A stretch of 41,598 nucleotides of DNA from Verrucomicrobiales bacterium (GTDB lineage Bacteria > Verrucomicrobiota > Verrucomicrobiia > Limisphaerales > JAQGOY01), in contig JAQGOY010000211.1 of the NCBI GenBank assembly GCA_028293375.1, positions 1 to 41,598 on the forward strand, read 5' to 3'. The notes beneath the pieces were generated by a model. The model ran no database searches and was not told where the DNA came from. It saw nothing but the letters and a program-made list of their open reading frames with translations. Below, piece by piece: positions 1 to 38,336 of the stretch. Each line of letters starts with the position of its first letter. Position 1 is the stretch's first letter. Both the position numbers and the translations under genes were made by a program.

Positions 1-169
1 AGTTTTCATTCACAACTAGTTCCAAATAAGTCACTTACGAAAACTAAAAACATTTCCAACTATTTTGAGGGTAGGACAGCGTACGGGGTATGCCCTCTGC
101 TAAAGTGCACTCGAAAGATAAAACAAAAACTAATTGAAAATCTAAAAATAACCTAAAACCACTTGAATT

Positions 170-868
170 ATGCAACGAGAAACCATCAACCAAATCCTGG
201 ACCTCCGCTTCGCCAACAAGACTTACGAAGAAATCGCCGCCACCGTGGGATATGCACCCCGTACCGTAGGCCGTGTCCTTGGCAAACACCGAGCCGATCT
301 CGCTCTGAGGCATTCCCAATGGCTAGAACTGAACAACGAGAAACTCCAAAACGATCTCCGAAGCCAGTCGACCCATCGCGCCACCGTCCTGCATCAGCTA
401 CCCGAGGAACTGAGCACCCGTAAATTTTCCGATATTCCAACCGATAAACTCATGAGAATGATAGAGCAGGGTGAACGGGCCGAACGCGAAACCGAAAACC
501 GACTGACAAAGCTCATCCATCGCGGAAACCAATCCATCGATGACTACGTGCCCGAAGTCGACGAACCCTCGTCCATCCCGTCCCTTCCATCGCGAAGCAA
601 CACTCCATCCCTTCCCAAACCGATCCCAACACCAGTTCCCGTGCCGGCTCTCACCGTGTTGCAAGCGGCATCACCAGCTCCGGAACAAGATCCAGCAGCT
701 AATGCTGAACGAATAGAGCCTGAAGATTATATTCCAGAAGATTGGACTGCCGAAGAAGAAGCAATATACCAGCAGGTCGTGTTGGAAGAAGAAAAACGGC
801 TCGCACAGCGACCAAAAAATCCCAACCCATGCTCAACTGGAGCGACGCCCCAAAAGAAGGCCGCGTAA
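170..868 (+). CDS. Hypothetical protein with N-terminal helix-turn-helix-like segment (QILDLRFANKTYEEIAATVGYAPRTVGRVL), Pro-rich C-terminal half
   Basis: ORF of 232 aa; N-terminus resembles HTH_23/Sigma70-r4-like helix pairs; located inside the left repeat block. Confidence 0.6.
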   Translation: MQRETINQILDLRFANKTYEEIAATVGYAPRTVGRVLGKHRADLALRHSQWLELNNEKLQNDLRSQSTHRATVLHQLPEELSTRKFSDIPTDKLMRMIEQGERAERETENRLTKLIHRGNQSIDDYVPEVDEPSSIPSLPSRSNTPSLPKPIPTPVPVPALTVLQAASPAPEQDPAANAERIEPEDYIPEDWTAEEEAIYQQVVLEEEKRLAQRPKNPNPCSTGATPQKKAA

Positions 869-874
869 ACAAAA

Positions 875-902
875 TGTCCTAAACCTGTCCTTAAAATGTC
901 CT
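875..902 (+). repeat. TGTCCT x3 array, 11-bp phasing (copy L1)
   Basis: TGTCCT at 875, 886 and 897. Confidence 0.85.
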
Positions 903-1303
903 TTTTGAAAAAGGCGATGCCGACACAAACCAAAGTGGAATGGACGCCACCCAGAAACCATTTCCTCTGTGCATTCATGGAAGTCGAACCTCGACCCGAA
1001 ATAAAATTGAAAACTCTTCCCCCTTGTCCTCGCTAAAAACCAGGAGATAATCCAGGGTGCAAAAAGAAATTAATCCATATGAGTGGTACAAGAAAAACCA
1101 AGGAAAAGGAAACGGTGAACTAGATCTCGGCACAGCCAACCCGCGAGCGTCGTAAAAATCCGTAGGATACGAGGTCACGAGAATCTGATCAAAAAAATCA
1201 AACGACCCGTGAATGATGAACACAAAAATACAAAGCACAAAATCCCTTTCCCACCTCCATGCCCATCAGAGTGTACACTCAACGATGGACACCACCCAAA
1301 AAA

Positions 1304-1375
1304 TGTCACCTTCAGTCAGATGTGACAACCGCATTCCCCTAGGGAAATGTCACTTTCTTGTCACTGTTTTAGTGG
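1304..1375 (+). repeat. TGTCAC module copy L1: TGTCAC...GTGACA palindrome followed by TGTCAC-type boxes at 11-bp spacing
   Basis: Boxes at 1304, 1322 (inverted), 1348, 1359, 1370 (degenerate). Confidence 0.8.
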
Positions 1376-1470
1376 ATTTCAAAACAGGACACCCATCGAC
1401 GTCGGAAGATCGGCCGGCCGAAGAATGGAGGTCGAACCTCGACCCGAAATCACGTGTTTCCAAACGAAAA

Positions 1471-1498
1471 TGTCCTAATCCTGTCCTTAAAATGTCCT
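1471..1498 (+). repeat. TGTCCT x3 array, 11-bp phasing (copy L2)
   Basis: TGTCCT at 1471, 1482 and 1493. Confidence 0.85.
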
Positions 1499-1591
1499 TT
1501 TTGAAAAATCTAAACGGACACAAACCAAACCCGAAAGAGCACCACCGAGAAACTTTTCCCCGTATTCATTCACGGAAGTCGAACCTCGACC

Positions 1592-1663
1592 TGTCACCTG
1601 CCGTTAGGGGTGACAACCCGGTCCTCCTGGGAAACTGGCACTTTCTTGTCACTTTATTAGTGA
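1592..1663 (+). repeat. TGTCAC module copy L2
   Basis: Boxes at 1592, 1610 (inverted), 1636 (TGGCAC), 1647, 1658 (TAGTGA). Confidence 0.8.
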
Positions 1664-1735: not shown

Positions 1736-3433
1736 ATGCCGAAAGCGCAATGGCACATCCCTAAACGGTTCCAATTGATGGCGATCACGATCCTGTGCCT
1801 CTCGACCAGTGGCTCCAGTGCAGCCACTTTCACTCGGGACATTGCTCCCGTTCTATATAAGCGTTGTTCACCATGCCATCATGATCGCCAATCTGCTCCG
1901 TTTAGTCTGGTGACCTATTCCGACGTCATCAAGCATGCCAAACAGATTGCGGAAGCCGTTAACAGTGGCTTGATGCCTCCTTGGTTGCCCGATCCAAATC
2001 CTTCCGGCTTCCTCAATGATAGAAGTCTTTCTGCATCCGAAAAAGCCTTGATCTTGAGTTGGATTTCGGAAGGCACGCCGGAGGGCGATCCAGCAATCCT
2101 GCCAAAAGCTCCTCAATGGCCTCAAGGTTGGTTGCTTGGAAAACCGGACCTGGTTTTGACCATGCCGAAACCATTTCTCCTTGGCCCCGACGGGGGTGAT
2201 GTTTATCGCAACTTTGTCATTCCTTCCGGTCTTTCCTCGAACGTCAACATTCGAGCTGTCGAATTCCATGCAGGCAACCCCAAAGTTATGCACCACTCTT
2301 TCATTAAGGTTGACGAGACTCATAAGTCGGCAATTCTTGAGTCCATGGGAAATGGGGTTGGCTTCGAAGGAATGAACAGCGGAGCAAAAATGCCCACCGG
2401 TCAATTCTTGACGTGGCAGCCGGGCAAGCTACCCGTTTCGACGGGTCCCGTGTGGACTCTCTCAAAGAATAGCGATTTGGTTTTTGAGACTCATATGCAC
2501 AGGTCTGGTAAACCAGAAACTGTTTCCTCTTCCATCGGGCTCTATTTTACCCAGAAAAGCGCCTCTACAAATTTTGTGAAGATACTTCTGGGCTCATTGG
2601 CGTTGAATATTCTCGCTGGTGATACCAATTACGTTGTTGAGGACAGTTTTGTATTGCCCACCGATTGTGATGTCTCCTCCGTGCTTCCTCACGCCCACTA
2701 TCTCTGCACAGAAATGAAGGCTTGGGCCGAACTACCAACTGGGACCGCCAAACAGATTCTTATTATCAGGCATTGGGATTTTAATTGGCAGGGAGATTAC
2801 CAGTACGCTGCCCCAATCCCACTTCCAAAGGGAACAAAATTAAAAATACGCTATACTTACGATAATTCCACCAACAATCTTAAAAATCCAAACAACCCAC
2901 CGAAAAACGTCTACTACGGAACCCAGTCCAGCGACGAAATGTGCGAGTTCTGGATCCAATTGGTTGTTCGGGATGGCGCACACCGAATTGCGATTGAAAC
3001 CGCTTTCCAGCAGAAATCGAAGGATCTGTTGGAAAAATCCATACTCTCAAAGCTAACCCGCAACCCCGGGGATAGTCAGTCGCTTTCGGACTTGGGATTG
3101 TTAAGAATTGGTGACGGCAAATATGCGGAGGCGGAAAAATTATTTCAAAGGGCCATTCAGGCAAATCCTGACGATGACACTAGTCATTATCGATTGGGAT
3201 TGGTCTATCGCATCACCAACAGATTTTCCGACTCGGATGCTGAACTTCTTCGCGCCGTCTCCCTGAATCCACGGAATGCACCCGCTTGGGGAAACCTGGG
3301 CTACGTCAAGGCCGGACTCGGCGACGCTGAGGGCGCAAAGACTGCCTTCCGACAAGCGCTGGATATCGATCCGACCGATGTTTATGCGAAGGCTGCGCTT
3401 AAAGAACTGGAGGCGTTGCCCAAAAAACCATAA
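1736..3433 (+). CDS. Secreted fusion protein: heme-binding CxxCH domain + PHM-like type II copper monooxygenase domain + C-terminal TPRs
   Basis: CSPCH at the N-terminus after a signal-like segment; VMHHSF, THMH, PHAHY and SSDEMCEFW motifs match PHM-family copper ligand regions; TPR-like repeats at the C-terminus. Confidence 0.8.
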   Translation: MPKAQWHIPKRFQLMAITILCLSTSGSSAATFTRDIAPVLYKRCSPCHHDRQSAPFSLVTYSDVIKHAKQIAEAVNSGLMPPWLPDPNPSGFLNDRSLSASEKALILSWISEGTPEGDPAILPKAPQWPQGWLLGKPDLVLTMPKPFLLGPDGGDVYRNFVIPSGLSSNVNIRAVEFHAGNPKVMHHSFIKVDETHKSAILESMGNGVGFEGMNSGAKMPTGQFLTWQPGKLPVSTGPVWTLSKNSDLVFETHMHRSGKPETVSSSIGLYFTQKSASTNFVKILLGSLALNILAGDTNYVVEDSFVLPTDCDVSSVLPHAHYLCTEMKAWAELPTGTAKQILIIRHWDFNWQGDYQYAAPIPLPKGTKLKIRYTYDNSTNNLKNPNNPPKNVYYGTQSSDEMCEFWIQLVVRDGAHRIAIETAFQQKSKDLLEKSILSKLTRNPGDSQSLSDLGLLRIGDGKYAEAEKLFQRAIQANPDDDTSHYRLGLVYRITNRFSDSDAELLRAVSLNPRNAPAWGNLGYVKAGLGDAEGAKTAFRQALDIDPTDVYAKAALKELEALPKKP

Positions 3434-36054: not shown

Positions 36055-36344
36055 TGGAAATGTTGAGATTTTGGTCCATGACTTCGTTCTCCTCTCCTGG
36101 ACAGACCCACGAGGGTATCGTCCCATCGAGGAAGCCTCGCCCTGGAGCCGAACTTCCAACATTTCGGGGCGGGAAGATTTGGGGCGTGCCTTTCGATGGA
36201 TTTATACACTCGAGGGAACTGAGGAAGGACAGGAATTTCATGCTTTGCTTTTTGTGTTCGTCTTGCACGTGTCGTTTGGCTTTTGATCAGATTCTCGTGA
36301 CCTCGTATCCTACGATTATTAACGACGCTCGCGGGTTGGCTTTG
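36055..36344 (+). repeat. Direct repeat unit R1 (290 bp)
   Basis: Near-identical to 36539-36859 apart from substitutions and a 30-bp insertion in R2. Confidence 0.88.
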
Positions 36345-36505: not shown

Positions 36506-36533
36506 AGGACATAGGAAGGACAGGATTAGGACA
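36506..36533 (-). repeat. TGTCCT x3 array (AGGACA on + strand), 11-bp phasing, right copy
   Basis: AGGACA at 36506, 36517 and 36528. Confidence 0.85.
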
Positions 36534-36538
36534 TTTGC

Positions 36539-36859
36539 TGGAAATGTTGAGATTTTTGTCCAAGACTTCGTTCTCCTCTCCGGGACAGACCCATCCTCCT
36601 TCGCCAAGGCTTCGGAGGACAGGCGAGGGTATTGCTCCATCGAGGAAGCCTTGCCCTGGAGCCGAACTTCCAACATTTCGGGGCGGGAAGATTTGGGGCG
36701 TGCCCTTCGATGGATTTATCCGCTCGAGGGAACTGAGGAAGGACAGGAATTTCATGCTTTGCTTTTTGTGTTCATCTTGCACGCGTCGTTTGGCTTTTGA
36801 TTTGATGCTCGTGACCTCGTGTCCTACGAATTTTTTAAGACGCTCGCGGGTTGGCTTTG
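36539..36859 (+). repeat. Direct repeat unit R2 (321 bp)
   Basis: See R1; carries the 30-bp insertion 36594-36623. Confidence 0.88.
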
Positions 36860-36921: not shown

Positions 36922-36995
36922 TGTCACTAAAAAAGTGACAAGAAAGTGACAGTTACCCAGGAGAACCCGGTTGTCACCTCTGACGGAAGGTGACA
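36922..36995 (-). repeat. TGTCAC module, right copy (inverted orientation)
   Basis: TCACTA 36924, GTGACA 36935 and 36946; GTCACCT-CTGACGGA-AGGTGAC palindrome 36973-36994. Confidence 0.8.
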
Positions 36996-38174
36996 TTTTT
37001 TTATGGCCTGGCAGGGACTCCGGACTCCACAAGGAATCGCCCCGCATCGGACCTTCCAAGGTTTTGGGTTTAAATTCATTTTGCGATTTCGGGTCGAAAG
37101 GGTTGAATTCCTGGCTGGGTGAGTTTGGTTCGCTTTGATTTTCAATGTCGGGGACATATAGGTTTATTTCTTTTTGCACCCTGGATTATCTCTTGGTTTT
37201 TAGCCGAGACAATGGCGAAGGGTTTTCAATTTTATTTTTGGGTCGAGGCTCGACTGCCCATTTGGGAGCAGCACCATCCTCCTTCGATTGCTCGTTCGAG
37301 GAAGCCTCACACTGCATCCACACCTGCAAGTTCAAGACAGGGCTATGCATTCGATTTGGGAGGGGTGCGGTATCGAGTTATGGACGGTCGAATACACCTG
37401 GCTTGGATTTAAAGTCATTTTTCTGTCGTCAGAATATTTCATCGATTGTCTTTCTAATTCATTTCGTTGAACCCATATTAACATGGGGCATACCCCGTAC
37501 GCTGTCCTACCCTCCAAATAGTTGGAATTATTTTTGCTTTGTATAAACCTCTTGGTTGGAGGCGCTTACGAATGAAAAACTGGGTTTAGAATGCCACGGA
37601 GCGGGGGGCGGGTTATTTAGATGGGGTTGCAGGATGTTCGGGACCCATGGATCAGGGCGGTGTTTTAAGATAAAAGGGAGCGATGAGACCAGGGAATACT
37701 AATTATTGCGAACACAAGCTAACGAACTTATCGAAGGGGCGGCGTGTCAGAGTGGGTGCACAAACTGAAAAGACAGCCTGGTTCCGCTCCAAATGCTTTT
37801 CACTTCATCCGCCCTCCTTTCTCAGTCTGCACTCTACAACAACGACTCTTAAACTTTGTTGTTCCCGTCAGATGAGAAGGAGCCAAAATGCTACCTTATG
37901 ATTTAGAAAATTCCTGAGAATAGAATCAGAAAAACGAGCCAAGGAACGATGAGAAAAGTCCGAAAGGCTAAAAGTGAATCGAAGGCGACCTTGTTGCGTG
38001 TATAAATTACGATAATCCAAGGTAAGTATGAACCAATCATTAGCATTAAGGAACTGATTCCTTTGACGTATCCGACCGACCAACCACGCGGTATTCAAAG
38101 TAATGAGAGAATTGATAAACCTGATGGATGTCAAAATTTAGCTGGAAGCGGAATTCCAAAAACAGACGCTCCTG

Positions 38175-38336
38175 TGCGTATTCCGGAGCAATTCGGACAG
38201 TGATTCCGAAAATGGCCGGACAGTGATCCGATTGAAAGCGGACAGATTTCGGCTCCGAGCGGAAGGGTGTCCGATATGAAATGGAATGCTGTCCGGAAAG
38301 TCTCGGAATGGTGTCCGGATTGCTCCGGAATATGCA
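38175..38336. mobile_element. IS21-like MITE / deletion derivative with terminal inverted repeats
   Basis: TGCGTATTCCGGAGCAATTCGGACA at left versus reverse complement of right end TGCATATTCCGGAGCAATCCGGACA; six symmetric CGGACA/TGTCCG boxes; no transposase ORF. Confidence 0.72.

Follow-up and report, generated by a model that had tools for sequence, protein, structure and literature searches.

The 41,598-nt stretch of Verrucomicrobiales DNA analysed here (the window) carries the hexamer TGTCCT in groups of three at an exact 11-bp period, which raises the question of what keeps box and phase in place: a protein on the DNA, a function in RNA, a machinery that copies repeats, or simply common descent. 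The preliminary description of the window placed these arrays at 875/886/897 and 1471/1482/1493 on the forward strand and, as AGGACA, at 36506/36517/36528, with every spacing 11 bp, and this is how they are found (each is termed module D):

875-902, forward strand: array 1, TGTCCT-AAACC-TGTCCT-TAAAA-TGTCCT (profile match 870-916)
1471-1498, forward strand: array 2, TGTCCT-AATCC-TGTCCT-TAAAA-TGTCCT
36506-36533, reverse strand: array 3, TGTCCT-AATCC-TGTCCT-TCCTA-TGTCCT

Array 1 begins 6 bp past the stop codon of a gene for an orphan HTH protein. The window contains six occurrences of TGTCCT-N5-TGTCCT, against 0.01 expected by chance.

Distribution and spacing in the genome

The genome searched is a 4.12 Mb draft in 281 contigs, estimated to be 76% complete, of which the window is contig C57. 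The three-box pattern occurs in it as 21 exact arrays and three with one mismatch; the lone two-mismatch match is array 3 of the window read out of register, and a profile search adds one copy that lacks the first box, giving 25 aligned copies. When all TGTCCT boxes with 0-20 bases between them (periods of 6-26 bp) are considered across the whole genome, 47 of the 56 close pairs have the 11-bp period and every other period occurs at most once; the genome-wide drift in spacing that the preliminary description had named as evidence against it is absent. One two-box pair, on contig C43, lies in DNA devoid of any of the modules described below. Matches to the exact pattern in the genome_contigs and viral_contigs collections were set aside, since most were simple tandem repeats of 11 bp or isolated matches that lacked the core, and literature searches on the TGTCCT motif and on Verrucomicrobia interspersed repeats returned nothing useful.

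Mosaic repeat blocks

A reading of the arrays as free-standing elements is not supported. In an all-against-all comparison of the contigs that carry them, all arrays of the conserved type fall within about 25 extragenic mosaic repeat blocks, about 0.5-2 kb in length, of which the array is one dispersed module. The order is constant, namely an F leader, the HTH gene (in some blocks), and then one or more repetitions of D array, E, A, B, and C, with members often missing; module profiles give a single orientation for all modules within every block. Direct searches of the genome return 41 matches to module A, 22 to B, and 12 to F. About half of the blocks include module D, and many have no array. 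In the window the remaining parts of the two blocks are as follows:

13-112, forward strand: module F, opening block 1 (nhmmer; genome copies)
170-868, forward strand: orphan HTH protein gene, 232 aa (five close copies in the genome)
904-984, forward strand: module E1 behind array 1 (profile)
1135-1288, forward strand: module A of block 1, with a GTAG-headed REP-like palindrome, GTAGGATACGAGGTCACGAGAATC (profile)
1298-1370, forward strand: module B of block 1, with TGTCAC boxes, two of them 11 bp apart (profile, sequence)
1427-1452, forward strand: module C, GGTCGAACCTCGACC (profile)
1500-1579, forward strand: module E1 behind array 2 (profile)
1592-1659, forward strand: second module B of block 1 (profile)
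36190-36341, reverse strand: module A of block 2, copy two (profile)
36704-36856, reverse strand: module A of block 2, copy one (profile)
36929-37001, reverse strand: module B of block 2 (profile)
37467-37570, reverse strand: module F of block 2 (profile)

Block 1 ends about 75 bp upstream of the ATG of the gene at 1736-3433, and block 2 ends adjoining an aldehyde dehydrogenase gene. Module B holds a second flavour of phased site, TGTCAC-TTTCT-TGTCAC at 11 bp, together with inverted GTGACA copies, and shares the left flank CTCCTAGGCAAATGTC with some arrays. On both sides of D the flanks belong to a few classes that are combined differently among copies, so the core is more than the midpoint of a single long and recent repeat, and D is a movable joint within the mosaic.

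Several further repeats are visible in and around the blocks. Within module F (13-112; 37467-37570) lies a conserved stretch, GAGGGTAGGACAGCGTACGGGGTATGCCC, whose ends are self-complementary, and a repeat adjoining block 2 (36055-36165 and 36539-36680), also present in other blocks, has complementary-looking ends, AAATGTTG...CAACATTT. Outside the blocks, a 25-nt inverted repeat (38175-38199 and 38312-38336) is 92% complementary with its arms 112 nt apart. Blocks also crowd the ends of contigs (C13, C29, C52, C57, C69, C117, C147, and C167); the assembly was probably interrupted by the repeats, and more blocks may exist than are counted here.

Conservation of boxes and spacers

Because the array copies share ancestry as one module of dispersed blocks, agreement in spacing is not by itself independent evidence of constraint. 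Across the 25 aligned copies the boxes are nearly invariant, and so are the AAA that precedes the first box and the TTTT that follows the third. Most copies have AAWCC as spacer 1, and most have TAAAA as spacer 2; the consensus of module D, about 40 bp, is AAA-TGTCCT-AAWCC-TGTCCT-TAAAA-TGTCCT-TTTT. Most of these copies were found by their boxes, so the unbiased set consists of the five loci found through a search with the HTH protein. The array is intact just past the HTH stop codon in all five, with variation in 0 of 18 box columns, 3 of 10 spacer columns, and 45% of the third codon positions of the adjacent gene (P about 2e-5 for box invariance against third codon positions, with columns taken as independent and the five loci related). 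Pairwise dS between the HTH gene copies at these loci is 0.28-0.47, and beyond the array their DNA is largely unalignable. The array core is conserved beyond the silent sites of the adjacent gene. The initial contrast between fixed boxes and changing spacers is thereby upheld for the boxes, which are the more conserved, and overstated the variability of the spacers.

Gene conversion or recombination at the core could account for part of this conservation, and conversion confined to these 40 bp or so is the main neutral alternative to constraint on the boxes. The genome profile search finds no decayed arrays between about 25 and 8 bits, and modules A, B, and F have drifted to just 71-78% identity. 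The earlier argument that the constraint lies on nucleic acid and not on a peptide is supported, and box phase is constant genome-wide (21 exact arrays, 47 of 56 pairs, 0 of 18 box columns). DNA is the likelier level of constraint than RNA, since neither strand of the array folds better than shuffled sequence (z between -1.8 and 0.6).

The orphan HTH protein

In all five close copies the HTH gene is followed by an array. The protein is under purifying selection (dN/dS 0.21-0.43), and its family, which is lineage-specific, comprises in this genome the five close copies and at least two distant ones; a diverged homologue on contig C244 occupies the same slot behind module F but has no array directly after it. 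The predicted recognition-helix residues R31, T32, R35, V36, L37, and K39 are invariant, even in comparison with homologues of 26-35% identity. A single-sequence structure model gives a confident N-terminal HTH (pLDDT 82-92), whose best fold likenesses are GerE and sigma region 4, with no significant E-value; weak profile matches are to sigma region 4 and to models of the CRISPR-repeat-binding protein Cbp1. Searches of PDB, Pfam, NCBIfam, and PHROG place the protein in no family beyond a weak HTH, and no catalytic domain was found in it. Relatives were absent from genome_contigs and viral_contigs by the method used, and 196 genomes of the order gave one marginal match.

A link between this protein and the array is plausible because the array trails the stop codon in all five close copies, but many arrays sit in blocks without the HTH gene.

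Genes beside the blocks

Blocks are located 5' of genes, at the start-codon end, and the majority are directed at a gene start, gene calls being open reading frames with Pfam backing for part of them. Pfam-supported genes that start just past a block and point away from it encode a protein kinase, an aconitase-family enzyme, ATP synthase subunit A, pyruvate carboxylase, a SocA-like antitoxin, a cytochrome c protein, and an aldehyde dehydrogenase; no common regulon is obvious among the downstream genes. For the five blocks with a Pfam-supported gene on the other side as well, transcription is divergent in every case. Exceptions are the block on contig C147, which points at the 3' end of an HDOD protein gene, and what looks like a second one on C227. 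The 5' setting is consistent. The orientation of blocks towards the downstream gene was considered as proof of regulation and dropped: many blocks are flanked by divergent genes, so that a downstream gene in the matching direction is always present, and orientation alone proves nothing. No -10 box is seen by eye at the usual distance past the array, and promoter-like sites are no commoner than in shuffled sequence.

Relationship to REP sequences and BIMEs

When 320 genomes of the order are searched with modules D-E-A-B, no whole block is found elsewhere; 23 other genomes give short matches, almost all of which fall in a single part of module A. In nine relatives' loci that were read, this part is a GTAG-headed unit (e.g., GTAGGAGACGAGGTGACGAGTCTC), accompanied in most of the nine by an inverted copy some tens of bases from it, and both arms of its short stem change from copy to copy, which is the signature of a REP sequence (PMC3733652, PMC2817692). 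Module A of the window's genome holds the same unit as GTAGGATACGAGGTGACGAGTATC. Among the units counted (26 in the genome's own blocks and 16 in relatives' loci), fully paired 5-bp stems are GATAC/GTATC, GAGAC/GTCTC, GAGTC/GACTC, and GAGCC/GGCTC, and other units pair at three or four of the five positions. GTAG-headed REP-like units, often in inverted pairs, are seen in many genomes of the order (relatives' loci L344-L352, around position 1500). GTAG-tagged REP repeats are known from the PVC superphylum, and Opitutus terrae is rich in them (PMC3733652); the present units resemble these in their GTAG head, imperfect palindrome, and, in relatives' genomes, inverted dimers, but differ in having a 5-bp stem and a 10-base loop, and no inverted pairs are seen within the blocks of the genome itself.

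On the makeup of its modules, the block family is best described as BIME-like. Like BIMEs, the blocks are dispersed, extragenic, multi-copy mosaics of short motifs (about 25 blocks, with modules F, HTH, and A-E) and include GTAG-headed REP palindromes in module A, for which a short stem with a long loop is atypical. Unlike BIMEs, they are much longer (0.5-2 kb), have modules of one orientation, with all module A copies of a block in the same direction in place of the alternating REP orientation, and carry 11-bp TGTCCT and TGTCAC arrays and a resident orphan gene. IHF and gyrase are among the proteins bound by known BIMEs (PMC2817692). According to a title cited in PMC2817692, the RIB elements of E. 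coli, which bind IHF, are located at the 3' ends of transcription units, in contrast to the blocks described here, which are 5' and often between divergent genes.

A proposed phased protein-binding site

In direct repeats of 11 bp the identical half-sites all face the same side of the helix, which is the arrangement used by regulators of the PhoB/OmpR type. The explanation favoured here, to which we give a probability of roughly 0.58, is that the array is a putative head-to-tail protein-binding site of PhoB/OmpR-like geometry in a lineage-specific BIME-like element, an assessment drawn from one draft genome in which the HTH-linked loci are five, few and mutually related. A protein would lie head-to-tail on one helix face, with one subunit per TGTCCT, and once bound may influence transcription, or the structure of the DNA locally, next to the flanking genes. 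Candidate binders are the block-borne orphan HTH protein and a cellular OmpR-family regulator; the genome encodes eight proteins with OmpR-type DNA-binding (Trans_reg_C) domains. The pho box of E. coli consists of 11-bp TGTC direct repeats, such as TGTCATAAAACTGTCATA at pstS (PMC10294691). The arrays share with PHO boxes and OmpR-PhoB sites the TGTC core of the half-site, the 11-bp period, and A/T-rich spacers; they differ from PHO boxes in having three half-sites and a box that ends in CT instead of AY, in being absent from the pst promoter, and in adjoining unrelated housekeeping genes.

Alternative explanations

The array could instead be the recognition site of a machinery that copies or recombines the blocks (a transposase, a recombinase, or the HTH protein of the block) and be kept selfishly. 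Its place at junctions of differing left and right module classes resembles that of a crossover or cut site, a single conserved orphan gene is carried by these repetitive blocks, and REP-like palindromes belong to the sequences that RAYT enzymes mobilise (PMC2817692, PMC8266576). This explanation is nevertheless doubtful: on inspection of the blocks the left end, F, is fairly constant, but right ends are variable and no terminal inverted repeats are seen; no HUH transposase (RAYT) signature is present in 0.4 Mb of overlapping loci from the genome itself; and the HTH protein shows no catalytic domain, while many blocks have no array.

It is distinctly unlikely that the array is a functionless passenger in a recently spread repeat family. 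Confinement of the conserved-type arrays to repeat blocks, and spacers that are themselves largely conserved, would fit such a history; boxes that stay invariant while the linked genes diverge at silent sites, the lack of half-decayed arrays, and the drift of other modules to 71-78% identity do not.

An element acting in RNA, such as a leader whose transcript offers repeated UGUCCU sites to a protein or small RNA, is very improbable. The blocks lie 5' of genes, most of them towards the gene start, and may be transcribed, but there is no structure beyond that of shuffled sequence, an Rfam search gives no match, and an exact 11-bp period is that of the double helix.

Still harder to sustain is the proposal that the arrays are PhoB sites, the Pho box of the phosphate regulon in this organism. 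They have TGTC-type half-sites at 11 bp in the same geometry as E. coli pho boxes (comparison sites from PMC10294691), and the genome has pstSCAB-phoU-phoB-phoR. PhoB is an unlikely owner because TGTC repeats are missing from the pst promoter, where the 11-bp direct repeat is of an AACA type, TTAACAGAAACGTAACA (locus L342, contig C230, about 14530-14547 in contig coordinates), and is likely the Pho box of this lineage; the neighbours of the arrays are also not phosphate genes.

Replication iterons or pieces of a plasmid-derived origin can be virtually dismissed: the comparison to iterons made in the preliminary description holds for geometry, in that both are phased direct repeats at one helical turn, but the arrays are scattered on the chromosome in at least 25 copies beside ordinary genes, with no Rep gene seen in the blocks, neither an adjacent rep gene, low copy number, nor an origin context, and no match in plasmid or phage collections.

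Implications

The common description of extragenic mosaics is of REP palindromes that RAYTs move; this family adds strictly phased multi-box arrays that have outlasted silent-site drift, and a resident gene, under purifying selection, for a predicted DNA-binding protein. Should the arrays be operators, one protein would be expected to shift all of the approximately 25 arrays, and such repeat families could plant regulatory sites by genes like those for ATP synthase and pyruvate carboxylase. It is a tentative further suggestion, and an unlikely one at present, that the orphan HTH family, encoded only in the blocks, binds all of the TGTCCT (and TGTCAC) arrays as a self-contained selfish-regulatory system; if it does, the repeat family would carry its own regulator together with the operators, and would wire unrelated genes of the organism into one network.
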